Positions 1 to 36,043 of a stretch of DNA of 41,618 nucleotides are shown here, piece by piece (the stretch's first letter is position 1; every line of letters starts with the position of its first letter). Origin of the DNA: a virus; IMG/VR virus record IMGVR_UViG_3300026116_000018, positions 1 to 41,618 of that record; one strand, 5' to 3'. The translations under genes and the position numbers were made by a program. Below the pieces are notes generated by a model, which worked only from the letters and a program-made list of their open reading frames with translations, did no database searches and was not told the origin of the DNA.

Positions 1-99
1 GCCGCCGCACCCTCGGCGCGCGCATCCGCCTCGCTGATCTCCTGCAGCCGCTGCACGCGCACGTCAGTGATCTCCAGCGTGATGCGGCTGGCCCGGCGC
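1..99. repeat. Left copy of 99-bp terminal direct repeat (circular assembly overlap)
   Basis: Bases 1-99 are identical to 41520-41618. A 99-base exact end overlap is what a k-mer assembler leaves on a circular or circularly permuted molecule. The repeat lies inside a gene whose reading frame is intact only when the ends are joined, so it is better read as assembly overlap than as a biological terminal repeat. Confidence 0.95.
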
Positions 100-1778: not shown

Positions 1779-1846
1779 GCCGCCTCCCGCGCGCCAGCGT
1801 GAAGCGCCTCGATGTAGGCAGCCAGCGCGGTTTCCTGTTCGGGCAT
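1775..1846 (-). CDS. Possible 23-aa small protein directly after the reverse transcriptase
   Basis: A 24-codon ORF starts at ATG 1846, two bases after the RT stop codon (1849-1851). It has a strong Shine-Dalgarno sequence, AGGAAAGG, about 6 bases upstream, formed by the last RT codons. The peptide is acidic and helical (MPEQETALAAYIEALHAGAR). Its stop overlaps the start of the next gene. It could be a genuine microprotein or a reinitiation leader coupling translation from RT to the downstream genes. Confidence 0.45.
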   Translation of the reverse strand: MPEQETALAAYIEALHAGAREAA

Positions 1847-1848
1847 GG

Positions 1849-2913: not shown

Positions 2914-2934
2914 GACGAGCTGCTCGAACAAGTC

Positions 2935-3041
2935 TGAATCTGCGGACGGCTCTGGCGCGCAGCTCGGCGCTCTTGTGGTTGTTGTTCTGGTTGCCGTTGT
3001 TGAAGTTCTGGTACCACGCGTTGGACGCGCCGGCCTGCTCA
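2935..3041 (-). repeat. DGR template repeat (TR)
   Basis: About 107 bp between avd and the RT core. On the minus strand it is rich in AAC codons, the usual TR design. It matches four variable repeats elsewhere (3625-3723, 6553-6659, 8028-8134, 9701-9803). Between 2942 and 3040, differences occur only where the coding strand has A: 20 of about 28 adenines are altered in at least one VR and no other base is altered in any. The GC-rich segment at the 2942-2970 end, shared by all copies, is the expected initiation-of-mutagenic-homing (IMH-like) part. The segment 2914-3212 otherwise has no separate gene that I can support. Confidence 0.95.
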
Positions 3042-3212
3042 ATGTCGTGCGATCTACATCGCCTGGCCGAAGGCTTTCGCCGATCAGCCTGGCAACTGCG
3101 CTGGGCCCGGCCTGCCTGCTGGCAGCGGTCTCCGTGGTGCGCATGGCGGTGGCCTCGTGAGCCAGCGGCACGACCAGATTCAAATTGCGCACGGGCATGT
3201 GGGCCTTGACCG

Positions 3213-3578
3213 TCATGCTGCAGGCGCCTTGTTCGCTGCGGACTTGAGCCACCCGCCACCCTGCCTTCCGATGCTGTCGAGCAGCGCGACGGACTTCGCC
3301 CAGAGGGCATGCGAGACGTAGCGGCTGTCGTGGCTGACGCGCAGGAGCACCGTGGTCGCGCGCAGGTGCGTCATCAGCGCGTGGATGTGGCCGGCGCGCT
3401 CGCCTTGTTTGGTGGCATTGGCAAGCGCCATCCGGTCGAGCATCTCGGTGCAGTGCTGCGAGATCTTGTCGCCCAGCGATCGCTTCACGCCGCGCGGCAT
3501 CTGCTCCTGCACCTGGACGGCCAGTTGCAGCAACTGCACCCCGGTGCGGTAGATCGGCAGGTCCGTGTGGATGGCCAT
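3213..3578 (-). CDS. avd: Avd-like DGR accessory variability determinant
   Basis: A 121-aa, basic, nearly all-helical protein. The opening segment (DLPIYRTGVQLLQLAVQVQEQMPRG) and the four predicted helices are typical of Avd, the small barrel-forming four-helix-bundle protein that binds the DGR RT and TR RNA and is required for cDNA synthesis. It lies 25 bp downstream of the first target gene and directly upstream of the TR and RT, as in BPP-1. Its TGA (3213-3215) overlaps an ATG at 3216-3214 in the RT reading frame. No strong Shine-Dalgarno is seen, so coupling to the upstream target gene is likely. Confidence 0.9.
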   Translation of the reverse strand: MAIHTDLPIYRTGVQLLQLAVQVQEQMPRGVKRSLGDKISQHCTEMLDRMALANATKQGERAGHIHALMTHLRATTVLLRVSHDSRYVSHALWAKSVALLDSIGRQGGGWLKSAANKAPAA

Positions 3579-3586
3579 GGCTCAAG

Positions 3587-3606
3587 TCAAAAGGATTGAA
3601 GGATCA
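3587..3606 (-). repeat. Conserved 3' flank of variable repeat 1
   Basis: A 20-bp segment beginning at the stop codon of the first target gene. It matches the flanks of targets 2 and 3 with one mismatch (core TCCTTCAATCCTTTTGA here). The TR has no copy of it, so it was not delivered by retrohoming. It may be a remnant of gene duplication or a VR-side cis element for homing. Confidence 0.7.
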
Positions 3607-3975
3607 AGCGGTAAGCTGAATCAAGCGGACGGCTCTGGCGCGCAGCTCGGCGCTCTTGTGGGTGCCGTCCTGGAAGCCGTTGTCGAAGTACTGGCACCAC
3701 GCGCCGGACGCGCCGGCCTGCTCGCATGTCCAGTACCAGTCATCCTTGAACTGGCCTTTCAGGTGCATGAACAGCAGCGCGGAGAGCGGCCGCGTTGGCA
3801 GCGCCGCGCCGATGCCTGCGGCCCAGGCCATTGCATCCTTCCAGGTCATCTCGCCGCCCGGCTCGTCTGCCAGCAGGACGACGGCGCAGTTCGTGCCATC
3901 TGCGGCCGTGGTCAGGCCGGCGAAGAGGCCGCCTTCGAGCGGCTGACCGATGGCCGGTATGTCTTTCAAATGCAT
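3604..3975 (-). CDS. DGR target protein 1 (DUF1566/C-type-lectin-like, variable C-terminus)
   Basis: The product is 123 aa from ATG 3975, chosen because a GGAG ribosome binding site lies about 5 bases upstream; longer upstream reading is Thr-rich and has no support. The order is a beta-rich N-terminus, then TWKDAMAWAAGIGAALPTR (typical of the DUF1566/Lcl C-terminal fold), DWYWTCEQAGAS, and a variable segment ending in SAELRARAVR. The variable residues are those encoded by AAC, TAC or nearby A-containing codons in the TR. It is the target next to avd and the most divergent of the four outside the VR (e.g. WTC where the others have WSS). Its ligand is unknown. There is no signal peptide or tail-fibre domain. 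Confidence 0.88.
   Translation of the reverse strand: MHLKDIPAIGQPLEGGLFAGLTTAADGTNCAVVLLADEPGGEMTWKDAMAWAAGIGAALPTRPLSALLFMHLKGQFKDDWYWTCEQAGASGAWCQYFDNGFQDGTHKSAELRARAVRLIQLTA
3625..3723 (-). repeat. DGR variable repeat 1 (VR1)
   Basis: Aligned to TR 2942-3040 without gaps. There are 11 substitutions, all at TR adenines on the coding strand (TR positions 2979, 2982, 2983, 2986, 2991, 2992, 3001, 3007, 3012, 3021, 3022). Homology to the TR breaks at both ends. Confidence 0.95.
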
Positions 3976-4009
3976 GGGTTCTCCAGGTGCGCCGGTGTCC
4001 CGGCATGTG

Positions 4010-4615
4010 TCACGGTTGATGAACGGGAAACGAGTGAGAGTTCCGCGCGTAGTCGAGCTCGTGGTATTTGTCGAGCCACCTGTCACGCCAGTCTTCCCAG
4101 GTAGCGGCCATGCGCTCCGGGCTGTTCAGCCGGACCCAGCCGATCGGCTGGGTCCCGGCCAGCGCCGACCACGGTGTTGGGGTGGCCGGCATCAGGTCGC
4201 GCTTCTCGGTGGCCAGCGCCATAAGGTCTGCGATGCGGATGTCCTGGCCGTGCGCCACGAACACCGTGCTCACCGCAAATGCGCTGCGCACACGGCGCAG
4301 CCAGCGCTCTTCCCACTGGCGCCATGGCAGCCCGATTTCCGCCTTGTGGGGGCTGGGCAGGTCGGCGCCGCAGTAGGGCTCGTGAGCATCGTGCAGCAGC
4401 GCGGCCAGCTGGCCGTAGACGTTGAGACCGAACTCGCGTTCCACGATCTCGCACACCAACAGGGAGTGCTCGGCCACGCTGTAGGGCCGCCGCGCATGCC
4501 CGGCGAAGCGGTTGAGTTGGCTCAGGGCCCATGCAGTGCTGCCAGCGGTGAACTGGCCAGGCTGCGGAAACCTGGTGTCCATCTCGGCGCCCTCTGCTGT
4601 CACGATGAAGGTCAT
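4010..4615 (-). CDS. HD-domain phosphohydrolase (YfbR-like)
   Basis: The product is 201 aa. Metal-binding HD-domain residues are visible: the segment YSVAEHSLLV (His about 50), then ALLHDAHEPY (His-Asp about 75-76) and a further His in LPSPHK. This is the pattern of phage and bacterial YfbR-type 5'-deoxynucleotidases that hydrolyse dNMPs. An N-terminal FPQPGQFTAGSTAWALSQLNRFAG segment, split by convention here, is characteristic of phage members. In this operon it could adjust nucleotide pools or act as a nucleotide-signal hydrolase; the substrate is inferred from family only. It sits between DGR target 1 and the DUF2303 gene. Confidence 0.85.
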   Translation of the reverse strand: MTFIVTAEGAEMDTRFPQPGQFTAGSTAWALSQLNRFAGHARRPYSVAEHSLLVCEIVEREFGLNVYGQLAALLHDAHEPYCGADLPSPHKAEIGLPWRQWEERWLRRVRSAFAVSTVFVAHGQDIRIADLMALATEKRDLMPATPTPWSALAGTQPIGWVRLNSPERMAATWEDWRDRWLDKYHELDYARNSHSFPVHQP

Positions 4616-4638
4616 GGTGGCTGCGCTCCAGGCCTACG

Positions 4639-5505
4639 TCACAGGCTGCCCAGGCGCAGCGGCGCCGGGTTCACCGCCGCCCTGACGGACTCGATCAGTT
4701 CCTTGGCTGCGGCTTCGTGCACGCGATCCGCACGGATCAGTTCGTACCTGAATGTGAGCTTGCCGCCCGCGGTGCTGTACTTCAGTCTGGCCGTGATCTG
4801 CCACGGCTGGCCGCCCCAGAAGACCGGGATGCCGATGCCGAAGCGCTCGAAGACCTTCATGTCGGCCACGGTCTGGTCGTCGGCGTCGTTGATGTACTCC
4901 AGTCGAGCGCCACCATCCTGCAGGCGAATCGCCGACTTGAACCGCATCTCCTGCCGCGCCACGAAGTTGGTGGCCATGGTCTTGAGTTGCAGCAGGGTCG
5001 GCAGGCCGTTCGCCTCGGCGAAATCCTCCTCGTGGTTCTCGATCCATTCGGCGAATTCCACCTGGCTCATCGGTTTGCCGTGCATGCCGAGCCATGCCTT
5101 CCACTCCGCGCTCAGCATCGGCGTGAACGTCGCCTTGTGGCCGCGCCAGCCGGCCTGCGCCGGCGTGTGCTCATCGATCACGCCAACGAACGAGAGGGCG
5201 TAGGACTGGGGGTTGAATCCGCACCAGACGGTCGCTCCGTTGTCGTCGGTGCGATGGTGCCGAACGTAGTCTGTGAAGCTGGCAGCATCGATGAGCGTGG
5301 CTGACGCCACCGTGCGGCGCGGGTTGTCCAGCAGCCGTTCCAGGTCGATCTCTTCGAGCCGCTGGCCCTGCGGCAGGGCCACGTGGAGCAGGCTGGCGTT
5401 TTCATTCGTGATGAGTTCGGCCTTTGGAAGCACGCGCGCCAGCGTGGCGGCAAGGTTCTCTGCCGCGGCCGCGTGTGGTTGGCCGCCCTTGGTGTCGATG
5501 GTCAT
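4639..5505 (-). CDS. DUF2303 (YfdQ) family protein
   Basis: The product is 288 aa, the usual length for the DUF2303/YfdQ family found in lambdoid prophages. Recognisable segments are an N-terminal helical region, a central TPMLSAEWKAWLGMHGKPMSQ segment with EFAEWIENHEEDF, and a C-terminal beta region ending in a FRYELIRADRVHEAAAKEL helix. The function of the family is not established; genes of this type sit in early phage operons next to recombination or anti-host functions. It is followed, in the direction of transcription, by the HD hydrolase and preceded by a small protein often found beside it. I see no catalytic signature. Confidence 0.85.
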   Translation of the reverse strand: MTIDTKGGQPHAAAAENLAATLARVLPKAELITNENASLLHVALPQGQRLEEIDLERLLDNPRRTVASATLIDAASFTDYVRHHRTDDNGATVWCGFNPQSYALSFVGVIDEHTPAQAGWRGHKATFTPMLSAEWKAWLGMHGKPMSQVEFAEWIENHEEDFAEANGLPTLLQLKTMATNFVARQEMRFKSAIRLQDGGARLEYINDADDQTVADMKVFERFGIGIPVFWGGQPWQITARLKYSTAGGKLTFRYELIRADRVHEAAAKELIESVRAAVNPAPLRLGSL

Positions 5506-5562
5506 GGTGAGCTTGGCTCCTTGTGGTGATCGGTTGATGCGGTGGTTGTGTGGCCCAGCCCG

Positions 5563-5919
5563 TCAAGCCGTCTTGATCTCGCCGGTTTCCTGGTCGATGG
5601 TCCGCGGCGCATGCTTGACCTCCGGTACCGCCCGCAGATCCAGCGTGCGCTGGTTGGGGTTGGTCATCTGCAGGTTGCCCTCCACCGTGGGCCAGAGCAG
5701 CGTGTCATCGGCCTTGGGTTCCGGCACCTTGGTCTTCACGTCGGCAGCAATGGCCACTGCGCCGGCCGACTTCTTGAGCTTCAGCGTGATCGTCAGCGTG
5801 CCGGCCTTGCCGGTCTCGTCCACGCCCTTTACCAAGGCGGCCAGTTGTTCACTGGCCCGGTCGCTGAACCTGCCTTCCTCCAGCAGGCGCAGCGTGTCGG
5901 TGATAGGTTTGATGCTCAT
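5563..5919 (-). CDS. Hypothetical 118-aa protein accompanying DUF2303
   Basis: N-terminal helix (ITDTLRLLEEGRFSDRASEQL) followed by beta strands (GTLTITLKLKKSAGAVAIAADVKTKVP) and a C-terminal segment PRTIDQETGEIKTA. The last motif, DQETGEI, recurs in small early phage proteins. The gene lies upstream of DUF2303 in the same operon and probably works with it. Family function is unknown. The composition is balanced and unlike the Arg/Pro-rich shadow frames, which supports the call. Confidence 0.75.
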   Translation of the reverse strand: MSIKPITDTLRLLEEGRFSDRASEQLAALVKGVDETGKAGTLTITLKLKKSAGAVAIAADVKTKVPEPKADDTLLWPTVEGNLQMTNPNQRTLDLRAVPEVKHAPRTIDQETGEIKTA

Positions 5920-6010
5920 GAGTCCTCGGTTGATTGGGTGTGGGCCGGTCCAGGTGGTCAGGCCGTGCGCGCCGGCCTGAGCCGCGCATCGCGCCTGCGT
6001 CGTTCTCTCT

Positions 6011-6514
6011 TCAGTGCCTCCGGGACCGCGTCAGCCGCTCCACCATGCGCTGAGCGATGGCAGCCGTGCGATGCCATGCAGCCGCCAGCCGTTCGTGGCA
6101 GGTTTCCGGCCGCTGGTCGGTTGTCAGCGGCGGGCGGGGGTCCTCATCGCGTGGGCCGGGTGTGCCTCCACCGGCGCCGGCGGATGGCTCGGATCTCCCG
6201 GCGGCCGCGGTGCATGCGGCCCGCGCCGCTTCTGCGGCGTCGGCATCCATCACGTCGGCGAGCGCGGCGAATATCAGCATCCGTGCCACGTCGTTGGGCG
6301 GCTGCAACTGGTCGGCCAGCACGGCCGATGCGGTCCAGGCTGGGCAGCCGTTTGGCTGGCTGGAAACCAGGGCTCGGATCGTGCTGACATACACGCCGGC
6401 CAGCAGTTCGTAATGACGCCCACAGAGCGTGCGGGCGGCCTCGCGGTTCTTGTGGACGATCGCGACCAGTTGATCTACGTCGCCCTGGCTGGGTGGGAGG
6501 AACGTGATGCTCAT
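6011..6514 (-). CDS. Hypothetical 167-aa protein
   Basis: The N-terminal two thirds look like a helical domain (DQLVAIVHKNREAARTLCGRHYELLAGVYVS and VARMLIFAALADVMDAD segments). A Gly/Pro-rich low-complexity linker (about residues 110-135) and a short basic C-terminal helix ending in RSRRH follow. It is immediately downstream of DGR target 2; the ATG at 6514 follows the target's conserved 3' flank by about 13 bases. No family was recognised. The low-complexity linker suggests two modules. Confidence 0.65.
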   Translation of the reverse strand: MSITFLPPSQGDVDQLVAIVHKNREAARTLCGRHYELLAGVYVSTIRALVSSQPNGCPAWTASAVLADQLQPPNDVARMLIFAALADVMDADAAEAARAACTAAAGRSEPSAGAGGGTPGPRDEDPRPPLTTDQRPETCHERLAAAWHRTAAIAQRMVERLTRSRRH

Positions 6515-6527
6515 GCTCTGGCTCGGC

Positions 6528-6547
6528 TCAAAAGGACTGAAGGATCA
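6528..6547 (-). repeat. Conserved 3' flank of variable repeat 2
   Basis: A 20-bp stretch starting at the target-2 stop codon (core TCCTTCAGTCCTTTTGA). It is identical to the target-3 flank and one base different from target 1. It is absent from the TR side. Confidence 0.7.
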
Positions 6548-6931
6548 AGCCTTGAATCTGCGGACGGCTCTGGCGCGCAGCTCGGCGCTCTTGCGGGTGT
6601 TGTCCTGGGTGCCGAAGCCGAAGTACTGGCACCACGCGTAGGACGCGCCGGCCTGCTCAGACGACCAGTGCCAGCCGGCCTCGATGCGCTGCTTGCAGTT
6701 GGCGTACATGAGCGCCAGTTCCTGCCGCGTTGGCAGCGTGCCGCCGGCGCTCTCGGCCCAGGCCATGGCACTCGTCCAGGACATGCGGGTGTCCGGCACG
6801 GCCGCCATCAGCACCAGGTGGTGCCCCGGTTGGCCGGCGGCGTCCAGCACCAGGCCTGCGTAGTGCTCGCCCGGCTGCAGTTCCGGCAGCGTGATGTGCG
6901 TCTCAGATGTTTGGTCAGTGGTCTCGGTCAT
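6545..6931 (-). CDS. DGR target protein 2 (DUF1566/C-type-lectin-like)
   Basis: The product is 128 aa from ATG 6931; the upstream in-frame ATG at 7012 would overlap the preceding gene. A short polar N-terminus is followed by LQPGEHYAGLVLDAAGQPGH, then SWTSAMAWAESAGGTLPTRQ, GWHWSSEQAGAS and the VR, ending RARAVRRFKA. The TLPTR and WSSEQ signatures place it in the DUF1566-type lectin fold used by several DGR targets. Its invariant scaffold is very close to targets 3 and 4, indicating duplication within the phage lineage. Variable residues include Y, G, F, T and D at positions encoded as Asn in the TR. Ligand and location are unknown. Confidence 0.88.
   Translation of the reverse strand: MTETTDQTSETHITLPELQPGEHYAGLVLDAAGQPGHHLVLMAAVPDTRMSWTSAMAWAESAGGTLPTRQELALMYANCKQRIEAGWHWSSEQAGASYAWCQYFGFGTQDNTRKSAELRARAVRRFKA
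6553..6659 (-). repeat. DGR variable repeat 2 (VR2)
   Basis: Matches TR 2935-3041 with 11 substitutions, all at TR adenines (TR positions 2976, 2979, 2986, 2991, 2997, 2998, 3000, 3001, 3007, 3012, 3022). All other bases, including the GC-rich IMH-like end, are identical. Confidence 0.95.
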
Positions 6932-6981
6932 GGGGTGCTTTCTGTCGGTACAAATGCATGGTCGCGAGGCGTGCGGCACGC

Positions 6982-7278
6982 TCATCCCTGTGTTGCTCGT
7001 GCGCCGTCCCAATTTGCTTCTTCGAGGGCCGTGTGCAGCGCGTCCAGGAACGGCTCGTCAGCAGCCATGACGCCGCCGGCCTCCAAGTGGTCCGCGATGC
7101 TCTGGGCAGCGGCCACCAGCCGTGGCGCGGCGATGAGGAGATGGGCGATGCGGATCTGCTGGCGCATCGTCGCGCCGTGGACGTCGGCGATCACGGTGCC
7201 TTGCGCGTCAACGACCTGGGTCGTGTACAGAGCCGTGGCTGGGCCCATGGACCACGGCTCCGGGGCGCCGGTGCTCAT
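6982..7278 (-). CDS. Hypothetical 98-aa protein
   Basis: Start ATG 7278 overlaps the upstream stop (7275-7277); longer reading upstream is a shadow of the next gene. The product has an N-terminal beta segment (ALYTTQVVDAQGTVIADV) followed by two helices (IAHLLIAAPRLVAAAQSIADHLEA and FLDALHTALEEANWD). A similar helical segment, with an AAPRLVAA-like core, is common in small Burkholderiales phage proteins of unknown function and is echoed in the 9287-9649 product (CAPALRRVAAEL). It lies just upstream of DGR target 2. Confidence 0.7.
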   Translation of the reverse strand: MSTGAPEPWSMGPATALYTTQVVDAQGTVIADVHGATMRQQIRIAHLLIAAPRLVAAAQSIADHLEAGGVMAADEPFLDALHTALEEANWDGARATQG

Positions 7279-7574
7279 GCCAGCACCCGGGCGGCGTAGC
7301 TCACCAGGGCGACGCACAAGGCGCCGATCGAGATCGTGATCACCACGAGGCGCAGCACGAAAATGTTCTTCTCCTGCTCGGTCACGCGCTGTTCCGCGGC
7401 CAGATCTATCACGGCCGGGCAGTCTCGGCCCTGCGTGCACCTGGCGTCACAGCAGAAGCGCTCCGGCTGCCCTGCCCGGCGGGCCATCGGCTGCGTGTCA
7501 TGCGCGCAGCCTGGCTGGCCCAGCATGTACTGCCGGCCACGGGATGGGAACGGAATGGGCGGTCGTTGAGCCAT
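7275..7574 (-). CDS. Small Cys-rich protein with C-terminal membrane anchor
   Basis: The product is 99 aa from ATG 7574. The first half is polar and basic. A cysteine cluster, FCCDARCTQGRDCP, lies at about residues 48-61. The last 30 residues form one hydrophobic segment (FVLRLVVITISIGALCVALV) ending in a short polar tail. The layout is that of a tail-anchored inner-membrane protein with a cytosolic metal-binding knuckle. Function is unknown; in an early operon it could be an exclusion or host-membrane effector. Its stop overlaps the next start. Confidence 0.7.
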   Translation of the reverse strand: MAQRPPIPFPSRGRQYMLGQPGCAHDTQPMARRAGQPERFCCDARCTQGRDCPAVIDLAAEQRVTEQEKNIFVLRLVVITISIGALCVALVSYAARVLA

Positions 7575-7608
7575 GGCGATCTCCAAGCAAAGATCCCGGG
7601 TGGCCGGG

Positions 7609-7962
7609 TTACTGCGGCAGGTCCAGCGGTTGGGTGTGGCGGAAGTCCGCGATGGGGCGGAAGCGCCGCTGCGACTCCTGGCGGACCATTTCGACCACGC
7701 GGGAACCCGTGATGGGCGGCATGGCCGGCCGCAGCGCGCGGTCGTTGGCGGCCCGCGTCCGAGCCAGTTTTTCCTGCGCCTCGCGCAATTCCTTGGCATC
7801 GCCCCAGCCCTTGATCGCGATGGCTGCAGCAATGATGGTGACGGCCAGCGCGATGGCGCCGATGCCGGCGTACATCGGGTTGACGCCGTCGATCTGTGTC
7901 ACTTGGCGCGGCTGGGCGCCGGCAACGGCGCAGAAGGCGCAGGGGTTGTACGAGGTGGTCAT
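7609..7962 (-). CDS. Hypothetical single-pass membrane protein
   Basis: The product is 117 aa. The N-terminus contains CAFC, then a hydrophobic transmembrane segment (YAGIGAIALAVTIIAAAIAI, about residues 31-50). A charged helical stretch (DAKELREAQEKLARTRAAND) likely forms a coiled coil, and the tail is basic and polar. It lies just downstream of DGR target 3 and upstream of another small membrane protein. Two adjacent small membrane proteins between DGR targets 2 and 3 is notable. No family was recognised. Confidence 0.7.
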   Translation of the reverse strand: MTTSYNPCAFCAVAGAQPRQVTQIDGVNPMYAGIGAIALAVTIIAAAIAIKGWGDAKELREAQEKLARTRAANDRALRPAMPPITGSRVVEMVRQESQRRFRPIADFRHTQPLDLPQ

Positions 7963-8002
7963 GGTGTGCTCCGTGACGTGGGTTGCTGGTGTTGTGGGTG
8001 GG

Positions 8003-8022
8003 TCAAAAGGACTGAAGGATCA
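8003..8022 (-). repeat. Conserved 3' flank of variable repeat 3
   Basis: 20 bp identical to the target-2 flank (6528-6547), beginning at the stop codon of target 3. The target-4 stop region has a related CCTTC-repeat version (about 9674-9697). Confidence 0.7.
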
Positions 8023-8619
8023 AGCCGTGAATCTGCGGACGGCTCTGGCGCGCAGCTCGGCGCCCTTGTGGAGGTAGCCCTGGTAGCCGTAGCTGAAGTA
8101 CTGGCACCACGCGTAGGACGCGCCGGCCTGCTCAGACGACCAGTGCCAGCCGGCCTCGATGTGCTGCTTGCAGTTGGCGAACAGCAGGGCCTGCTCCTTC
8201 CGCGTGGGCAACACGCCGCCGACGCTCTCGGCCCAGGCCATGGCGGCTGCCCAGTTCAGTTCGCCATCCGGGGCGGCGGCCATGAGCACCAGGTGATGCA
8301 GGTGCTGGCCCTGGGCATCGAGCACGACACCGGCATAGTGCTCGCCGGGCCGCAGGCTGACCGGCGGGGTGGCGCATGTAGGTGCAGCCTGGGCCTCTTG
8401 GTGCCTCGCGGTGGCGCGGCCGATCACGGCCGCACGCTCATGGTGGCGGGTGGCGCCATCCGTGCCCAGGCCAGCCTGTTCGGACTGTCTGGCGAACTCC
8501 GCCTGTTGTCGGGTCGTCATGCAGCTCAGGGCCAGCATCAGCAGCTGGTGGGCGGCGCGCAGCTCGTCGAGCATGTCATCGGCCAGGGGCTGCGGCGCAG
8601 GATGTTCTTTGGCGTCCAT
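8020..8619 (-). CDS. DGR target protein 3 (helical N-domain plus DUF1566-like lectin domain)
   Basis: The product is 199 aa from ATG 8619 with an AAGGA ribosome binding sequence upstream. It is the longest target: an added N-terminal helical domain (about residues 1-85, with LADDMLDELRAAHQLLMLAL) precedes LRPGEHYAGVVLDAQGQ, NWAAAMAWAESVGGVLPTRK, GWHWSSEQAGAS and the VR. The lectin scaffold is nearly identical to target 4, implying a recent duplication, but the N-terminal domains differ. The different N-domains could give each target a separate partner or location while sharing one diversified binding surface. There is no signal peptide. Confidence 0.88.
   Translation of the reverse strand: MDAKEHPAPQPLADDMLDELRAAHQLLMLALSCMTTRQQAEFARQSEQAGLGTDGATRHHERAAVIGRATARHQEAQAAPTCATPPVSLRPGEHYAGVVLDAQGQHLHHLVLMAAAPDGELNWAAAMAWAESVGGVLPTRKEQALLFANCKQHIEAGWHWSSEQAGASYAWCQYFSYGYQGYLHKGAELRARAVRRFTA
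8028..8134 (-). repeat. DGR variable repeat 3 (VR3)
   Basis: Matches TR 2935-3041 with 12 substitutions, all at TR adenines (2971, 2979, 2980, 2983, 2985, 2986, 2992, 2998, 3000, 3007, 3012, 3022). It includes a Ser-to-Gly change close to the IMH-like end, so mutagenesis reached TR position 2971. Confidence 0.95.
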
Positions 8620-8685
8620 CGAGATCGTCCTTCATGTGGTTGGGCTACTGGCACGCGTATGGCGCCATCTATCGCGGTCTGTGCG

Positions 8686-8940
8686 TCAGGTGATGAGGCT
8701 CAGCCACTGCTCGGCGGCGGCCTTGGCGACTTGCAGGTTGCGGAACTCGACCTGCGGCTCCAGGTGACCCTGGGCGAACTCCAGCTCCACGGTCACGACG
8801 AAGCCGTTGGTGGTGACCCGGGCGCCGGCGCTGCGGCCGGGCATGCGCCCATACAGCACACCACCGCCGGCGGGTGTCCAATGGACCGCTGACCCCAACT
8901 GGGTGGGGCGGCGCGCAGAGGTGCAGGGCAATGCGCTCAT
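8686..8940 (-). CDS. Hypothetical 84-aa protein
   Basis: A small product whose ATG (8940-8938) overlaps the upstream TGA (8937-8939). The second half looks like a beta hairpin (GFVVTVELEFAQGHLEPQVEF) plus a helix (AKAAAEQWLSLI). It sits just upstream of DGR target 3 in the operon. No family was recognised. The tight ATGA coupling is the main support. Confidence 0.65.
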   Translation of the reverse strand: MSALPCTSARRPTQLGSAVHWTPAGGGVLYGRMPGRSAGARVTTNGFVVTVELEFAQGHLEPQVEFRNLQVAKAAAEQWLSLIT

Positions 8941-9290
8941 GCTGCAGCCCTCGGCGTGGCATCGTCATGCCATACCACCACATCGCTCTCGCGGCGCAGC
9001 AGGCCCTGCTGCGGGTAGCGTGTGTACAGGTGCTGTTCGCCCCGCGGGGCGTCCTGCCACTCGAAGAATGGCAGGACGCGCGCATCCACGGCCAACAGTG
9101 CAGCGTTTTCTTCCTCGTGCTGCGTGGCCATGGCGGCCAGTTGGTCGGTGCTGGTGGTCATGCCGCTCGGATGCCACCACTCCAGGCTGGCCCAGGTCAC
9201 CGACTGGGCCATCTGCGCGGCTGCGAAGTCCGCGGCCATGGCGGCCTGCTCGTTCTCATGGAGGCGGGGCAGGGTGCAGACGGCGTTCAT
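8937..9290 (-). CDS. Hypothetical 117-aa protein
   Basis: Start ATG 9290 is chosen because it overlaps the preceding stop (9287-9289); upstream in-frame sequence is Arg/His-rich shadow. An N-terminal helix contains HENEQAAMAADFAAAQM, followed by WASLEWWHPSG and, further on, a mixed region with FFEWQDAPRGEQHLY. The product is Trp-rich and acidic. No family was recognised. It lies between DGR targets 3 and 4. Confidence 0.65.
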   Translation of the reverse strand: MNAVCTLPRLHENEQAAMAADFAAAQMAQSVTWASLEWWHPSGMTTSTDQLAAMATQHEEENAALLAVDARVLPFFEWQDAPRGEQHLYTRYPQQGLLRRESDVVVWHDDATPRAAA

Positions 9291-9649
9291 GACGCGCTCC
9301 CGATGGCCACGATGGCCTTGTCCATGGCGGCATGCGCGCGGGCGATGCGGCGGCAGGTGGCGCACTGGTCCTGCGGCGACAGGCCGTCGTGGCACATGTT
9401 TCCGGCCGGAGGCAGCGGCGGCGCCACGTCCTGCAGTGCGGCCAGCAGTTCCGCGGCCACGCGGCGCAGCGCTGGGGCGCAGGCGAGCAGCCGGGCCAAC
9501 GGCTCATTCGGCCCGGCCCAGGTGGCCGCCACGCAGCGGCCGGCGTCGTCCAGGATGCGGTGCATGAGCACCTCGCCCGTGATGGGCGACACCACGGGCT
9601 CGACGCGGAGCGGCCGGGTGGGATCGTCTGCGGTCTGGGTGGTGGTCAC
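9287..9649 (-). CDS. Hypothetical 120-aa protein with CxxC motif
   Basis: The N-terminus is a beta region (VSPITGEVLMHRILDD), followed by a helical middle (LLACAPALRRVAAELLAAL) and a C-terminal CATC pair with an upstream Cys (NMCHDG) that could form a zinc knuckle. Its stop overlaps the next start. It is immediately downstream of DGR target 4. The central helix resembles that in the 6982-7278 product, hinting at a shared origin of the small genes beside each DGR target, though the similarity is weak. Confidence 0.65.
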   Translation of the reverse strand: MTTTQTADDPTRPLRVEPVVSPITGEVLMHRILDDAGRCVAATWAGPNEPLARLLACAPALRRVAAELLAALQDVAPPLPPAGNMCHDGLSPQDQCATCRRIARAHAAMDKAIVAIGSAS

Positions 9650-9694
9650 ATTGGCTCCATCAGTGGGGTGTGAAGGATTGAAGGACCGAAGGAT

Positions 9695-10225
9695 TCAGAC
9701 TCTGCGGACGGCTCTGGCGCGCAGCTCGGCGCTCTCGTGGAGGCTGTCCTGGTCGCCGTAGTAGAAGCTCTGGCACCACGCGTTGGACGCGCCGGCCTGC
9801 TCAGACGACCAGTGCCAATCCGCCACGAGGTGCTGCCTGCAGTTGGCGAACAACAGGGCCTGCTCCTGCCGCGTGGGCAACACGCCGCCGACGCTCTCGG
9901 CCCAGGCCGTGCCGGCTGCCCAGTTCAGTTCGCCCTCCGGCGCTGCGGGCATCAGCACCAGGTGATGCAGGTGCTGGCCCTGGGCATCGAGCACCGCGCC
10001 GGCGTAGTGCTCGCCGGGCTGGAGGTTCAGGGGGGTTGCGGCGGCGAGTGCGACGCTGGCGGCTTCGATGGCCGGTCGCGAGTCGTTCGGGACACCGTCG
10101 AGTTCGTAGCGGGCCACCAGGGCGCGCAGCGCCTCCAGCAGCGTGGGCGGGGCGACGGGGGCTTGGGCTTCGGCCTCTGCGTTGAGACGGAGGTCAGGAG
10201 CGGCTGCGGGCTGGGTGGGGGTCAC
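9695..10225 (-). CDS. DGR target protein 4, first gene of the leftward operon
   Basis: The product is 176 aa with a GTG start at 10225, preceded by GGAGAG at good spacing, about 30 bases downstream of the predicted PL start. The N-terminal domain (about 1-70) is Ala/Pro-rich with a helix TLLEALRALVARYELDG; then come LQPGEHYAGAVLDAQGQ, NWAAGTAWAESVGGVLPTRQ, DWHWSSEQAGAS and the VR ending RARAVRRV. The scaffold is almost the same as target 3. As the promoter-proximal gene it should be the most strongly expressed of the operon. It retains Asn at the first variable position, as in the TR. Confidence 0.88.
   Translation of the reverse strand: MTPTQPAAAPDLRLNAEAEAQAPVAPPTLLEALRALVARYELDGVPNDSRPAIEAASVALAAATPLNLQPGEHYAGAVLDAQGQHLHHLVLMPAAPEGELNWAAGTAWAESVGGVLPTRQEQALLFANCRQHLVADWHWSSEQAGASNAWCQSFYYGDQDSLHESAELRARAVRRV
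9701..9803 (-). repeat. DGR variable repeat 4 (VR4)
   Basis: Matches TR 2939-3041 with 10 substitutions, all at TR adenines (2974, 2979, 2980, 2982, 2986, 2992, 2998, 3001, 3006, 3012). One includes a Lys-to-Glu change, at 2974. Confidence 0.95.
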
Positions 10226-10260
10226 TGGGCTCTCCAGGCGACCGGGGTGGTCGATGGATG

Positions 10261-10300
10261 AATATTAGTCCGACTGTTTGCATGAGTCAACAGTCAGACT
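10261..10300 (-). promoter_or_regulatory. PL-like promoter with paired operators
   Basis: On the minus strand, -35 TTGACT (10290-10285) and -10 TAATAT (10267-10262) are separated by exactly 17 bp. Two 9-bp palindromes, AGTCCGACT (10267-10275) and AGTCAGACT (10292-10300), lie 25 bp centre to centre and cover the -10 edge and the region just upstream of the -35. The predicted start is near 10255, upstream of DGR target 4. The same arrangement recurs at 11288-11326, as expected for phage repressor operators. Confidence 0.8.
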
Positions 10301-10467
10301 GATATTCCACGAAGAGACCGACGCAATCGTGAAAATTACCCGTTCCGCGAGCAGCGGGAGCGAAAAGGTGCGGGCCTAGGACTCCAAAACTTGAGCCTGT
10401 GATAGCGTCAAGCAGCGCTGGCCGCGAGCCCAGAAGTAGGCCGCGAGCAGCCTACTGGAGTACGGCG

Positions 10468-10692
10468 ATGAAATGGTTGCTGTTGATGCTCGGTGGCTTC
10501 GTTGTCCTATCCCTCTTGTTTGGGAAATCAGACCCGAAGGCGCAAGAGAGGATGAAGGCGCGCGCCGCCATCCAGCTATGCTGGAAAGACTACGAACGCA
10601 GGTCCCTCAGCGAAGCCGAGAAACAGTTCATCGCCGGGGCTTGCGAGAGGATGGAAGCGAACTTCGAGACGAAGTACAACGCCAGGCCCTAG
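10468..10692 (+). CDS. Small membrane-anchored or exported protein, candidate lysogenic moron
   Basis: The product is 74 aa from ATG 10468, with GGAG about 7 bases upstream. A hydrophobic N-terminal segment (WLLLMLGGFVVLSLLFG) is followed by a charged domain with two Cys (QLCWKDYERRSLS and GACERMEANFETKY). It is transcribed convergently to the repressor, separate from both lytic operons. This is the typical place for genes expressed in the prophage (superinfection exclusion, host traits). The 10301-10467 stretch upstream holds no clear gene, and I could not identify a convincing promoter there. Confidence 0.7.
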   Translation: MKWLLLMLGGFVVLSLLFGKSDPKAQERMKARAAIQLCWKDYERRSLSEAEKQFIAGACERMEANFETKYNARP

Positions 10693-10707
10693 TTGCCGAG
10701 TTCCGTG

Positions 10708-11250
10708 TCAACGAGAGTGCCGCTGTCCGGATTTCTCCCCATCTGCCGGCGGCAGATCAAGCCCAACCAGGGTCATGGCGGCCTCGAATCGACCTTTCCG
10801 CTCCTCGCTCGCTGCGTCGTAGATGCGGGCGATTTGAATGGCTCTGGGGCTGAGCTTTTCGAGTAGCGCACTGGTGCCCACCACGTACATGCCGACCGGC
10901 TCTTGAGCTGTCAGGGTCTGGCCGGTGGTGGCGGTTGATTCGCTCCGTGTGCTCGGTGCGTCAAGCCACCTCCGCGCTGCCGCCACGGCAGATGCGTTGA
11001 TCGACGGGCTGATCAGATCCGGACTGACGCTCAGCAAAGTGGCGAACTTGAGCAGCACATCCTGGTTCGGCGGGATCTTCCCGCCCAGATACTGCGCCAG
11101 AGCGCTCTGCCCGAAACCGAGCTGATCGGCCAGCTCCAGCTGTGAGTGCGGCTGGCCAGCTTCCTTGAGCTTGGTTTGGTGCGAGTCGAAGAGCCGCCGG
11201 AGGCGTGCGGCGTCCTGTCGCTGTTCTGGTGTGAGTGGCTTGGCAGGCAT
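10708..11250 (-). CDS. CI-like phage repressor (HTH XRE) without S24 peptidase domain
   Basis: The product is 180 aa. An XRE-type helix-turn-helix covers about residues 35-80 (SQLELADQLGFGQSALAQYL then GKIPPNQDVLLKFATLL). The C-terminal half has a small beta-helix region (GMYVVGTSALLEKLSPRAIQIARIY) but no Ser-Lys autocleavage motif, so RecA-stimulated self-cleavage is not evident. It lies between the two operator pairs and divergent from the Cro-like gene, the classic immunity layout. It should bind the AGTCNGACT operators and shut off PL and PR in the lysogen. A TAATAG about 10 bases upstream of its ATG could be a weak maintenance-promoter -10. Confidence 0.88.
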   Translation of the reverse strand: MPAKPLTPEQRQDAARLRRLFDSHQTKLKEAGQPHSQLELADQLGFGQSALAQYLGGKIPPNQDVLLKFATLLSVSPDLISPSINASAVAAARRWLDAPSTRSESTATTGQTLTAQEPVGMYVVGTSALLEKLSPRAIQIARIYDAASEERKGRFEAAMTLVGLDLPPADGEKSGQRHSR

Positions 11251-11287
11251 TCCGTCACGCTATTAGCCGACCTCATGCACCGCAAAC

Positions 11288-11333
11288 AGCCCGACTGTTG
11301 TGTTTTACAAGCAGTCGGACTAATATTGCATGC
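11288..11333 (+). promoter_or_regulatory. PR-like promoter with paired operators; near-leaderless start
   Basis: -35 TTGTGT (11298-11303), 17-bp spacer, -10 TAATAT (11321-11326). Operators AGCCCGACT (11288-11296, one mismatch) and AGTCGGACT (11313-11321) are again 25 bp apart. The sequence from the second operator through the -10 is the same as at PL. The expected transcription start, about 7 bases after the -10, falls at the cro-like ATG (11334), so the mRNA would be leaderless or nearly so. Confidence 0.75.
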
Positions 11334-11753
11334 ATGAGCGCACTCAAAGCCATCCGCGGCCTGCTTCGTGTCACCCAGGCTGAGCTCGGCGAGGCCCTCG
11401 GCGTCACCCAGGGCAATGTGTCCTTCTACGAGCGCGGGCAGACCATCCCGCCAGATATCGCCGGCCGCGTGCTTGACTTCGCGCGCAGCCGCGGGCTTCA
11501 CATCACGTACGACCACCTCTACGGTGGCGCGGCTCTACCCGACTCGTCGGCAGAGCGGCCGGTAGCTGTCAGCCAGATTGCGCATCACGCACCTGCCGGC
11601 AACCTGCCGGCCCTGCAGCCGGACGATTACCCGCCGGTGAAGCAGCGCACCGAGCGCGGCTCCGTGCAGGTGCTCCACGCTCCGCGCACAGCGCTGGGCG
11701 CCGGTGGTGAGACGGGCCCGGACACCTCCGGGCAGGAGGCCGTCCATGCGTGA
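11334..11753 (+). CDS. Cro-like HTH regulator
   Basis: The product is 139 aa from ATG 11334; longer reading upstream crosses the operator and is a shadow. XRE-type HTH spans about residues 3-50 (IRGLLRVTQAELGEALGVTQ then NVSFYERGQTIPPDIA). The C-terminal half is Pro-rich and disordered and contains LQPDDYPPVKQRTERGS, a motif repeated in the next gene product. As the first gene from PR and divergent from the repressor, it is expected to act as Cro, antagonising the repressor at the same operators. No Shine-Dalgarno precedes it, consistent with leaderless initiation. Confidence 0.85.
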   Translation: MSALKAIRGLLRVTQAELGEALGVTQGNVSFYERGQTIPPDIAGRVLDFARSRGLHITYDHLYGGAALPDSSAERPVAVSQIAHHAPAGNLPALQPDDYPPVKQRTERGSVQVLHAPRTALGAGGETGPDTSGQEAVHA

Positions 11754-12060
11754 TGCTGTTCGTCATGTGCCCACTGTGGCTGAGCTGGCGGTGCCGGGCA
11801 AGCTGCCCACCGGCCCCATGCACAGCCCCACGCATCGTCATGCGCAACCACGATATGACGTAGGGGGTGGTGGGCCTGTGTCTTCGCCGCTCCCGCCTCT
11901 CCAGCCGCAGGACTACCCCCAGGTGCGGCGCCGCACAGAGCGCGGCTCCACGGCCGACCCGCACCCCGGTAGTTCCAGCGCTTTGCGCGCCGGGCCGCCA
12001 TCAACACCCGGGCCAGCCGGCCCGGGCTCCTCACCCTCAGAACTGGCCGGTACGGCCTGA
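11746..12060 (+). CDS. Small Pro-rich protein sharing a motif with the Cro-like protein
   Basis: The product is 104 aa from ATG 11746, with AGGAGG centred 8-9 bases upstream; it overlaps the cro-like stop. Mostly disordered (Pro, Gly, Ser). It contains LQPQDYPQVRRRTERGS, closely matching the Cro-like C-terminal motif. Either the segment was duplicated between neighbours or both carry the same short docking peptide. The position matches that of cII-type regulators, but no HTH is visible. Function is unknown. Confidence 0.65.
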   Translation: MRDAVRHVPTVAELAVPGKLPTGPMHSPTHRHAQPRYDVGGGGPVSSPLPPLQPQDYPQVRRRTERGSTADPHPGSSSALRAGPPSTPGPAGPGSSPSELAGTA

Positions 12061-12069
12061 AAGGCATCC

Positions 12070-12369
12070 ATGAACGACAGCAATGCATCAGTCCTAGATC
12101 CGAAAGCCGGTAGCGCCGGCGCGGCGGAGATGTTGGTCATCTCCAAGCCGCAGCTGAGGGCGGCGCTTCTCCTTTGGGAGAGGCAAGCCCGCGCTGGCGG
12201 GACCCGAACCCACGAGGAAGCTGATGCACTCCCTGTCGAGCAGGTGGCCCAAGAGTCGGCTGACTTCCTGTGGGGTCTTCTCCCTGGTGCGGAGACCTGG
12301 CTGTCCACGTCAGACCTGGCTGCAGATCTCTGCTCCGAGGTGGCGGCCAGCCCGGAGCGCGGCGCTTGA
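12070..12369 (+). CDS. Hypothetical 99-aa acidic protein
   Basis: An acidic, helical protein (VISKPQLRAALLLWERQARAGG, then PVEQVAQESADFLWGLL). It starts at ATG 12070, ten bases after the previous stop, with an AAAGG-type ribosome binding sequence. The helical segment resembles that of small phage proteins of unknown role in early rightward operons. No domain was recognised. Confidence 0.65.
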   Translation: MNDSNASVLDPKAGSAGAAEMLVISKPQLRAALLLWERQARAGGTRTHEEADALPVEQVAQESADFLWGLLPGAETWLSTSDLAADLCSEVAASPERGA

Positions 12370-12446
12370 CTCCCTGACGCGGCGCGAGGCCAGTCCGTGA
12401 CCATCGACACCACGCACTTCATGGCTGACCTCACCGCGGTGCGGCG

Positions 12447-12659
12447 TCAGCCGCGCGGAGGCTGCTGGAGCCGTTTGAGTTCACTCACGGCAGCGGCTCG
12501 CGCCCCATCCGAGATGGGTCGCGACAGGAGCAGGCCATCCAGGTACTCCGGGTCGAGCATGTTCACAGCGGCCTGGGCAGTCGGCGTGCTCTGCAGCACC
12601 GCCTTCAGGACCGCATGTTGCGCAACGAGCGAACCGATGAGCTTGTCGATGTTTTCCAT
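12447..12659 (-). CDS. Reverse-oriented 70-aa helical protein
   Basis: Transcribed against the surrounding rightward operon. ATG 12659 has a near-consensus AGGAGG about 7 bases upstream. The peptide is a balanced helical sequence (MENIDKLIGSLVAQHAVLKA, later DGARAAAVSELKRL) rather than the Arg/Pro-rich look of shadow frames. It may be an independently expressed accessory gene inserted into the operon. I saw no clear promoter. Function is unknown. Confidence 0.6.
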   Translation of the reverse strand: MENIDKLIGSLVAQHAVLKAVLQSTPTAQAAVNMLDPEYLDGLLLSRPISDGARAAAVSELKRLQQPPRG

Positions 12660-12743: not shown

Positions 12744-13214
12744 ATGAGCACCTTCATCTACGTGGCGGCCCTTGTCGCGGCCAATAACCTGGTGTGGGCC
12801 ATCGGCCCCTGGGCGTCGCCGTTGATCGCGTTCGCTCTGATCGGCCTGGACCTATCGCTGCGAGATCGGCTGCACGACCGACACGGCCTCTTGGCCTCTG
12901 TCGGGATGGTTTTCGCGGCGGGGGTGATCTCGTTCGGCATGAACCCGGCCGCCGGCCGGATCGCCGCAGCGTCATGCACTGCTTTCGTGGTGGCCGGGCT
13001 GGCGGATGCACTTGCCTACCAGGCGCTGCGCCGCTGGGTTCCGCTGATGCGCATGAACGGCAGCAACGTCGCCGGAGCCATCGTCGATTCGCTCATCTTT
13101 CCCGCGCTCGCCTTCGGCGGCCTGATGCCTGGGATCGTGGTGCTGCAGCTCGCGGCCAAGGTTGCTGGTGGGGCCGTGTGGGCCTGGCTGCTGACGAAGA
13201 GAGCGTCAGCATGA
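12744..13214 (+). CDS. VUT/YhhQ-family 7-deazaguanine precursor transporter
   Basis: The product is 156 aa, very hydrophobic, with about five transmembrane segments. Visible signatures are LDLSLRDRLHDRHG, a loop NGSNVAGAIVDSLIFPALAF and LQLAAKVAGGAVWAW, typical of the VUT (YhhQ-type) family. Bacterial YhhQ imports preQ0/preQ1; phage members are shorter than E. coli YhhQ. Its stop overlaps the start of the DpdA-like gene (ATGA), so the two are translationally coupled. The pairing suggests that imported preQ0 or a related base is used by the next enzyme for DNA modification. Start ATG 12744 follows an AAAGG ribosome binding sequence. Confidence 0.85.
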   Translation: MSTFIYVAALVAANNLVWAIGPWASPLIAFALIGLDLSLRDRLHDRHGLLASVGMVFAAGVISFGMNPAAGRIAAASCTAFVVAGLADALAYQALRRWVPLMRMNGSNVAGAIVDSLIFPALAFGGLMPGIVVLQLAAKVAGGAVWAWLLTKRASA

Positions 13215-14071
13215 GGTTCTTCACCGGCCTGCACCAGCCCAGCGATGCGCGTCACTTTGACGCGGCCTTCATCAGCATCAACCGCCTGCGGGGCCGCAAG
13301 TCGCCGATGCAGGTGCGCGACTGGATCATGGACAGCGGCGCCTTCACGGAGATCAGTTCCCGCGGTGGCTACCGGCACAGCGTGGCCGACTACGCGGCAG
13401 AGATTCGGCGCTGGGCCGGCAACGGCAACTTGCTTGCGGCGAGCGCGCAGGACTGGATGTGTGAGGACGTGGTTCTGAAGCGTGCCGCAATCGCCGAGGG
13501 CACGCTGCCGGCGCCGGCGTGGTTTGACCATGCCGACCCGCAGGCATTTCGCAAGTTGGGTGCCGTGCCATGGGCTTTCGAAGGCCACCGCGAGCAGCAG
13601 TTGCTGGCTCATCAGAAGCGCACCATCGAGCGCTACGACGCGCTTCGGCGCGAAGACACCGCGGGCGTGTACATCCTGCCCGTGCTGCAGGGCTTCGCGC
13701 CGGCCGACTACGTGGCGCACCTGGCCATGTACGGCGACAGGCTGCCGGGGGGGGCGTGGGTTGGCGTTGGCTCCGTGTGCAAACGCAACGGGGACCCGCG
13801 CCAAGTGGCCGCGGTGCTGCTGGCGATCAAGGCCGCGCGGCCGGAACTGAAGTTGCACGGGTTCGGGCTGAAGACCACGGCGCTGGCCGATCCGCTCGTG
13901 CGCTCCCAGCTGGAGACCGCGGATTCCATGGCCTGGAGCTTCAGTGCGCGGAAGAACGGCCGCAACGCCAACGACTGGCGCGAGGCGGTGCATTGGGCCA
14001 AGAACATCACGTCCCGTCCTGTGCAGCACGTGCTTGATCTCCTGCTGGCTCTTTCATTGGAGGCCCTATGA
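13211..14071 (+). CDS. DpdA-like (TGT-family) DNA 7-deazaguanine transglycosylase
   Basis: The product is 286 aa. TGT-superfamily features are the DSGAF motif (41-45; compare DSGG in tRNA transglycosylases), AAQDWMCED-like residues at about 79-85, and the glycine-rich WVGVGSVCKRNGDPRQ segment followed by LHGFGLKT. The last two are characteristic of phage DpdA-type enzymes, which exchange guanine in DNA for a 7-deazaguanine. It lacks the C-terminal tRNA-binding PUA part and is shorter than bacterial Tgt. Its coupling with a preQ0/preQ1 transporter, and the absence of queC/D/E/folE in this genome, suggests reliance on host or imported precursors. The modification would protect phage DNA from restriction; this last step is inference. 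Confidence 0.8.
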   Translation: MRFFTGLHQPSDARHFDAAFISINRLRGRKSPMQVRDWIMDSGAFTEISSRGGYRHSVADYAAEIRRWAGNGNLLAASAQDWMCEDVVLKRAAIAEGTLPAPAWFDHADPQAFRKLGAVPWAFEGHREQQLLAHQKRTIERYDALRREDTAGVYILPVLQGFAPADYVAHLAMYGDRLPGGAWVGVGSVCKRNGDPRQVAAVLLAIKAARPELKLHGFGLKTTALADPLVRSQLETADSMAWSFSARKNGRNANDWREAVHWAKNITSRPVQHVLDLLLALSLEAL

Positions 14072-14598: not shown

Positions 14599-15044
14599 GC
14601 CGCAAACGCTGCCACCGGCGCCCCATCGTCGCCCAGCCGCCCCGTGGAATGCGCCCCAGGCTGCGGGCCGCCCAGGTGCGTGACCTGGGCCTGTGCCATG
14701 CCATCAACCTCGACGCCATCGCCACCGGCACGGCCGATGCGGCCACGCTGTGGCAGTGGGTGGGTGGCGTGCTCACCTGGTCGCAGGTGGCCGATGTGCT
14801 GCAGGCTGGCGTGCCGGAGATGCAGGCGCAGCTCGAGATGGTCAAGCGCGTGATCGAACGGTTCTCCCGCACGGGCCGTGTCGGCTTCAGTGGGACCGAC
14901 TACCAGCTTGCCAGGGAGGGCGTCCAAGTCATGGACCAGTTGTCCGAAGTCGTGGACAGGGCTACGGCCGTGGCGGCGGCCGAGTGGTCGGAAGAGCGGC
15001 TCAATGCGCTGGTGGGGCGTTCTGATGCGGGGGTGCGGTCGTGA
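14595..15044 (+). CDS. Hypothetical 149-aa phage protein
   Basis: ATGA-coupled to both neighbours. The opening is basic (MSRKRCHRRPIVAQPPRG), followed by an all-helical domain with LCHAINLDAIATGTADAATL, WQWVGGVLTWSQVADVLQAG and a C-terminal helix rich in Glu, Ala and Val. A similar helical protein is common next to replication genes in Burkholderiales phages, without known function. It is probably nucleic-acid or replication associated, judged from position only. Confidence 0.7.
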   Translation: MSRKRCHRRPIVAQPPRGMRPRLRAAQVRDLGLCHAINLDAIATGTADAATLWQWVGGVLTWSQVADVLQAGVPEMQAQLEMVKRVIERFSRTGRVGFSGTDYQLAREGVQVMDQLSEVVDRATAVAAAEWSEERLNALVGRSDAGVRS

Positions 15045-16426
15045 TGGATGGCTATGCCTCGCTGATCGCGTCCAAGTCCCAGGCCGGGGCAGACAGTGGG
15101 TTTGAGCCGCTTTGGATGCCGGACTTCCTCTTCGACTTCCAGGCCGCAAAGACGGAGTGGGCCATCCGCAAGGGGCGGGCCGCGAACGTTGCCGACTGCG
15201 GCCTCGGCAAGACCCCGATGTCGCTGACATGGGGCTCCAACGTGGCCCGCAAGACTGGCCGGCCGGTGCTGTACCTGAACCCGTGTGCAGTGGGCCCGCA
15301 GGTCGTGCGCGAGGCAGAGAAGTTCGGGGTCGAGGCCCGGATGTCGCGGGACGGTTCCAGCCATGGCCACATCGTCGTGACGAATTACGAGAAGCTGCAC
15401 CTGTTCAACCCTGGCGACTTCGGTGGCGTCATCTGCGGCGAGAGCTCGATCCTGAAGTCGTTTGAGGGCCAGCGGCGCGGCGAGATCACGCAGTTCATGC
15501 GGAAGGCCGAGTACCGCCTGCTGGAGACCGCCACGGCGGCGCCCAACGACTACATCGAGCTCGGCACATCCTCCGAGGCCCTCGGCTACCTGGGGCATAT
15601 GGACATGCTGAACCGGTTCTTCAAGAACGACCTCAACAACAGCGCCCAGGGGCGCATGCGCGGCGAGGTGATCAAGTGGCGGCTGAAGGGCCACGCCGAG
15701 GAGCCATTCTGGCGCTGGGTCTGCTCGTGGATGCATGCCATCCGCAAGCCTTCCGACATGGGCTACCGAGACGGCGCATTCGTGTTGCCTCCTCTGGAAG
15801 AGGTTGAGCACCTGGTGAAGTCGGCCACCCTGGCTGACGGCATGCTGTTCGAGATGCCGGCGGTGGGCCTGCAGGAGCAGCGCGAGGAGCGGCGCCGCAC
15901 GGTGGGCGAGCGCTGCGAGTACGTGGCCGGGCTGGTGAACCCCACCGGCGAGCCGGCGCTGGTGTGGTGCGACCTCAACGAAGAGGGCGACCGGCTGGAG
16001 CGGCTGATCCCCGATGCCGTGCAGGTCAGTGGCGCCGACAGCGACGAGGCCAAGGAAGAGAAGCTGATGGCCTTCGCCAGCGGCAGGGCTCGCGTGCTGG
16101 TCACCAAGAAGAAGATCGGCGCCTGGGGGCTCAACTTCCAGCACTGCGCCCACATCGTGGACTTCCCTTCGCACTCCTTCGAGCAGCGCTACCAGGGCGT
16201 GCGGCGGTGCTGGCGCTTCGGCCAGAAGCGGCCAGTCCGCGTGGATACCGTGACCACCGAGGGCCAGCAGGGCGTCGTGAAGAACCTGCAGCGCAAGGCC
16301 GAGCAGGCCGACCGCATGTTCTCGCGGCTGGTCCAGCACATGAACGACGGCGCCGCCATAGCGCGCGTCGACCACCACACCAAACCCATGGAGTGCCCGC
16401 AATGGCTGTCGCCAATCAACTGCTGA
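15041..16426 (+). CDS. SF2 (SNF2-like) DEAD/DEAH-box helicase
   Basis: The product is 461 aa. Walker A-like motif CGLGKT is at about 53-58. The Walker B position reads ICGESSILKS (about 130-139), where phage relatives have DESS, so the first acidic residue is missing. A C-terminal motif VI, QRYQGVRRCWRFGQ (about 380-395), matches the SNF2 pattern QRxxRxxRxGQ. Such proteins unwind or remodel DNA, and phage versions sit near replication and methylase genes. The next gene starts 25 bp inside its end. The altered motif II may reduce ATPase activity, or a shifted Glu may serve. Confidence 0.85.
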   Translation: MMDGYASLIASKSQAGADSGFEPLWMPDFLFDFQAAKTEWAIRKGRAANVADCGLGKTPMSLTWGSNVARKTGRPVLYLNPCAVGPQVVREAEKFGVEARMSRDGSSHGHIVVTNYEKLHLFNPGDFGGVICGESSILKSFEGQRRGEITQFMRKAEYRLLETATAAPNDYIELGTSSEALGYLGHMDMLNRFFKNDLNNSAQGRMRGEVIKWRLKGHAEEPFWRWVCSWMHAIRKPSDMGYRDGAFVLPPLEEVEHLVKSATLADGMLFEMPAVGLQEQREERRRTVGERCEYVAGLVNPTGEPALVWCDLNEEGDRLERLIPDAVQVSGADSDEAKEEKLMAFASGRARVLVTKKKIGAWGLNFQHCAHIVDFPSHSFEQRYQGVRRCWRFGQKRPVRVDTVTTEGQQGVVKNLQRKAEQADRMFSRLVQHMNDGAAIARVDHHTKPMECPQWLSPINC

Positions 16427-35112: not shown

Positions 35113-35123
35113 TCCGGCACGCC

Positions 35124-36023: not shown

Positions 36024-36043
36024 TTTTAATAGGAGCAGATTGA

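Follow-up and report, generated by a model that had tools for sequence, protein, structure and literature searches.

All four targets of a phage DGR were found in the leftward arm of the genome, behind a PL-like promoter with putative repressor operators and on the strand opposite the tail fibre gene. In a lineage with hundreds of members, all targets found in the long records checked likewise lie in the early arm, on the strand that does not carry the structural genes. A sequence-only reading had described the targets as early genes rather than tail genes and had suggested that the diversified proteins may act inside the host or be added to virions in trans. The first part is strongly supported and extends to the whole DGR lineage; action inside the host stands in part, as the best-supported reading, because of the position of the genes, the size of the proteins, the lack of export signals and the independence from tail type. 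We consider it fairly probable that the four small C-type-lectin products of this early-arm DGR are cytosolic early lytic binders inside the host.

Results

Layout of the leftward arm

The window, which is the whole stretch of DNA analysed (IMGVR_UViG_3300026116_000018, 41,618 nt), carries a 99-base direct terminal overlap and is therefore read as a phage genome of 41,519 bp that is circular and looks complete. At the sequence level, it is a complete circular temperate phage of lambda-like type. The relevant features are as follows.

1849-2913, minus strand: DGR reverse transcriptase (RT; PHROG RT 1.8e-110, Pfam RVT_1)
2925-3041, minus strand: template repeat (TR), core 2968-3040
3213-3578, minus strand: avd (PHROG Avd of DGR 1.3e-22; Pfam bAvd 38.5 bits, just below the cut-off of 40)
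3604-3975, minus strand: Target 1 (T1), 123 aa, VR 3608-3724, ATG start at 3975
4010-9649, minus strand: other early-arm genes interspersed among the targets, including unknown small genes
4010-4615, minus strand: dNMP phosphatase-like gene
4639-5505, minus strand: DUF2303 gene
5563-5919, minus strand: phrog_204 gene
6545-6931, minus strand: Target 2 (T2), 128 aa, VR 6543-6659
8020-8619, minus strand: Target 3 (T3), 199 aa, two N-terminal helices and a C-type-lectin domain, VR 8018-8134
9695-10225, minus strand: Target 4 (T4), 176 aa, C-terminal VR (core within 9687-9803), GTG start
10260-10307, minus strand: PL-like promoter inside a 19-nt inverted repeat, the presumed repressor operator, ~36 nt before the T4 start
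10708-11250, minus strand: presumed repressor gene, HTH (PHROG transcriptional repressor, Pfam HTH_3)
11285-11327, plus strand: second operator-like copy, inverted, directly upstream of the cro-like gene
11334-11753, plus strand: cro-like regulator gene (Pfam HTH_3)
36044-37663, plus strand: tail fibre gene without a VR
40096-41202, minus strand: integrase gene int, where the leftward arm ends when the genome is read as a circle
41199-41405, minus strand: excisionase gene xis (PF07825)

Leftward on the minus strand, the order is T4, T3, T2, T1, avd, TR and RT, and, because the record is circular, xis and int follow the RT on the same strand across the circle closure. Three small genes lie between T4 and T3, three more between T3 and T2, and four between T2 and T1 (an unknown, phrog_204, DUF2303 and the dNMP phosphatase-like gene). 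The gene map and circularity bear out the earlier description of T4 as the first leftward gene, with the other targets, avd, TR, RT and xis/int on its strand. The genes had also been described as mostly overlapping, which has to be corrected: 3 of the 14 junctions in the arm overlap (4 bp each), and the others are closely spaced instead, at 23-91 bp. The xis and int genes overlap by 4 bp. Elsewhere in the window, a DpdA family gene (12794-14071; PF23859, 5e-34) suggests 7-deazaguanine DNA modification, a known means of resisting restriction, and a SNF2-like helicase gene at 15041-16426 has a weak DpdE match.

Adenine-directed variation in four VRs

As judged by its components, the system is a genuine DGR, with an RT, Avd, TR/VR pairs and a C-type-lectin target all present. 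The RT aligns with BPP-1 brt at 32% identity. Of the 25 adenines of the TR, 10-12 are changed in each of the four VRs (10 in T4), and none of its 49 other bases is changed in any of them (p no greater than 5e-6 for every VR). Pooled over the VRs, this amounts to changes at 44 of 100 A sites and at 0 of 196 others. AAC codons are abundant in the TR, which has a theoretical capacity of ~10^14.7 protein variants. A blastn search of the window with the TR returned no copy beyond these four VRs and none in the tail fibre gene, in agreement with the earlier statement that the fibre carries no VR. In all four VR cores of T1-T4, TGC (Cys) is present where the TR has TAC (Tyr); this shared change may have arisen by chance, by common ancestry or by selection.

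Target position across the lineage

Searches with the RT identified relatives both in viral contigs (at least 595) and in bacterial genomes (at least 568). VRs were found in 157 of 165 loci read, upstream of the RT and on its strand, in one case beyond the origin of a circular record. A locus typically has two or three VRs; the highest VR count is four, seen at two of the 165 loci. In a profile search, 357 reading frames for targets were recovered upstream of the RT, and the opposite strand yielded none; the frames scored as downstream were mostly the TRs themselves. The 29 long uncultivated records in which a single terminase could be assigned all have the RT on the strand opposite to it, and in all 44 long records the target homologues are without exception on the strand of the RT. 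The same orientation, with the DGR opposite the structural genes, is observed in the seven records of the named phages Magia, QDWS, Haboob, Cruim01, LPPA56, phPA-G and SC_8_H2H8_2017. The early-arm neighbours are regulators, integrases, methyltransferases and a recombination exonuclease.

In a tree of RTs with a midpoint root only, 12 open inner forks and a very long BPP-1 branch, BPP-1 and locus L204 stand apart from the rest, and the group of the Methylobacter prophage L161 forms its own branch. The distant RT of L204 (34%) follows a tail-like target gene, downstream of a tape-measure gene and on the same strand.

Target proteins and tail modules

The targets are small. In a profile-based set of 336, the median length is ~195 aa, and the shortest consist of one lectin domain of ~120 aa, without a trimerisation or attachment part. 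A crude test returned signal-like starts in 7 of the 336, and TM-like stretches are present in 2. T1-T4 have no signal peptide by inspection and match no PHROG or Pfam family annotated as a virion protein, so the earlier view that they lack both features holds with one caveat: the targets match the C-terminus of phrog_4245, a family of 583 positions that is also matched by a genuine tail fibre. The structure predicted for T3 has a C-type-lectin fold (pLDDT ~98) preceded by two N-terminal helices, and a fold search returned the C-terminal domain of Legionella Lcl as the nearest solved structure. T4 probably also carries a helical N-terminal extension. For the T3 N-terminus, no relative was found among phage records, with a weak PHROG match (phrog_11952) alone. 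PADLOC, with a library that covers defence rather than counter-defence proteins, gave no defence-family match for the targets.

These properties bear on the possibility that the targets, though made early, join the virion in trans and act there as detachable receptor-binding or decoration domains, in which case the DGR would still serve adsorption. C-type-lectin folds are often surface binders. Phage DGR targets are mostly tail-like in a global survey, which found this for viral targets in clades 1, 4 and 6 (PMC8144416). A related domain also ends the tail fibre of L161, with a match to phrog_4245 as for the targets. The tail genes of this prophage occur in the order of the window (a tape measure, judged from its position and appearance; a protein of phrog_6278, 36% identical; and a fibre), and its DGR lies behind the fibre and diversifies the Lcl-like fibre tip. 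The related domain thus serves as a fibre tip in L161 and, in the window, as free early-arm proteins. The L161 and window fibres share no detectable relatedness.

Against the in-trans role, the targets never adjoin structural genes in the records read, the smallest are single domains, and an identical type of module occurs with contractile and other tails. INDEPENDENCE from the tail is illustrated by Magia and Haboob, which carry a related DGR module with a contractile tail and a TipJ-type tail, respectively. A sheath gene is present in 5 of 44 records, one of them (G021) a record with two terminases. Among 27 phages with tape-measure genes related to that of the window, this RT lineage occurs in 2 and a distant RT in 2. 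A virion role, which we regard as unlikely, is disfavoured by the small size of the targets, by their lack of domains for export or assembly and by the independence of the module from the tail.

Three further observations concern the structural genes of the window. After the tape measure, only two genes, phrog_6278 and the fibre, are present (31345-37663), and the usual siphophage tail-tip genes are not seen there. An AT-richer stretch, noted by eye at the tail fibre gene junction (35480-36100), may indicate that the fibre region was recently exchanged. At 26540-28681, a protease and the major head protein are apparently fused in one 713-aa gene (phrog_4523).

Control region of the leftward arm

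A consensus sigma-70-like promoter (TTGACT-17-TAATAT, 10290 to 10262, minus strand) points at T4 and lies within the 19-nt inverted repeat (10260-10278 and 10289-10307). An inverted copy of the 41-nt segment 10261-10301 is present at 11287-11327; 33 of the 41 positions match, compared with 27 in the best of 300 shuffles. Promoter and terminator scans on their own were not above chance: 2 promoter-like sites were observed in the region versus 1.0 expected, no excess when taken alone. The evidence for the promoter rests on its position within the operator-like repeat, not on hexamer counts. The region resembles the lambda PL/PR arrangement at the level of sequence, with a putative operator-covered leftward promoter and an arm that ends in xis-int. 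The promoter within the inverted repeat and the copy beside the cro-like gene agree with the earlier placement of T4 first behind a PL-like promoter with putative operators.

Between the leftward promoter and the repressor gene, and convergent with the latter, lies a small plus-strand gene (10468-10692) with a hydrophobic N-terminus, which possibly encodes a membrane protein expressed in lysogeny. The location of this gene between the arm and the repressor, together with the frequent occurrence of such genes in this arm of temperate phages, would fit a role of the targets in the lysogen, expressed from their own promoter for superinfection exclusion or host benefit. T4, however, lies directly behind the putative operator-covered promoter, no further promoter-like site was found on the minus strand within 1-12500, and the targets have no export signals. 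Because the arm would be repressed in the lysogen, an exclusion role is disfavoured, and activity in the lysogen is judged quite improbable.

Selection on the targets

Outside the VR, pN/pS is 0.22, and inside the VR it is 1.93 (188 related pairs, which are not independent of each other). In several pairs of related contigs whose flanks are identical or nearly so, 13-20 VR bases differ, all or nearly all of them at TR adenines. As related contigs differ almost solely at these positions, the VRs of relatives appear to have been recently active. L248, the sole close relative of the window found via T4, has two intact targets (4531-5438) between recT/ssb-like genes and xis/int, and no RT was detected within its 29-kb contig, which may be incomplete. 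It looks like an apparent DGR-less remnant in which the targets seem useful on their own. A passenger role, in which the DGR brings along its own substrate genes with little gain for the phage, would fit the presence of the module on many phage backbones but is very hard to reconcile with the conservation outside the VR, the intact targets of L248 and the scattering of the targets among ordinary early genes, where a passenger would be expected as a single cassette.

Discussion

The reading that we prefer, action of the targets inside the host, can be set out as a cycle. In a lysogen, repressor bound at the operator (10260-10307) would silence the leftward arm. Upon infection or induction, the leftward promoter would fire through T4, T3, T2, T1, avd, TR and RT towards xis-int. 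The TR RNA would be copied by the RT together with Avd, inaccurately at adenines, and the resulting cDNA would replace the target VRs. Progeny genomes would then bear new variants, and the variant proteins would appear as the next infection begins. As presumably cytosolic, stand-alone C-type-lectin products, likely absent from virions, they probably bind variable host-internal proteins, such as defence proteins, host factors or products of rival phages. An early-arm position does not prove exclusively early action. For the broader proposal, that this DGR lineage of proteobacterial phages diversifies cytosolic early proteins as an antibody-like counter-defence or host-takeover repertoire rather than for tropism switching, we see the balance as even.

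Phage DGRs are usually read as host-range changers that act through tail fibres. The largest survey annotates most targets of the main phage clades as tail proteins (PMC8144416). Among the publications consulted, none places the targets of a phage DGR wholly in the early arm. Such a placement would alter the logic of selection: the infecting genome itself would make the early intracellular protein, so that every variant would be tested together with the gene that encodes it. Whether targeted hypermutation serves phages against intracellular variation, for example in defence systems, is now a testable question, and experiments are feasible because the module is present in several cultured phages.

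Comparison with known systems

The window DGR shares with that of the Bordetella phage BPP-1 (mtd/avd/TR/brt) an RT, Avd, a TR, a target whose 3' end holds the VR, changes directed to adenines and the order target-avd-TR-RT. The BPP-1 DGR, however, shares its strand with the structural genes and targets the tail protein Mtd, whereas the window has four early-arm targets; a tail or receptor-binding target encoded among structural genes, which marks the BPP-1 type, was not found in the window. L161 resembles the window in its RT (49% identical), related VR domain and tape measure/phrog_6278/fibre order, and differs in that its DGR lies in the late operon behind the fibre, which is itself diversified. 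The cellular DGR of Thiohalocapsa also has diversified C-type-lectin proteins that are predicted to be cytosolic and are proposed to sense intracellular ligands, but these belong to cellular defence with NTPase or effector partners (PMC10907252), and the phage targets are without such a domain. In Quimbyvirus, one diversified target lies off the structural genes, on the opposite strand and amid defence-related genes (PMC8008677). The other of its two targets is in the structural region and its host is Bacteroides (PMC8008677), whereas the window targets are all in the early arm. The authors who described the Burkholderia phage Magia (Magiavirus) noted its short targets, without the early context, and proposed adaptation or host-range change (PMC7883833). 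Magia differs from the window in its three VRs and contractile tail, and resembles it in an RT that is 65% identical, short lectin-fold targets and an arm that ends in xis-int, with one target first in the leftward arm and two adjoining avd.
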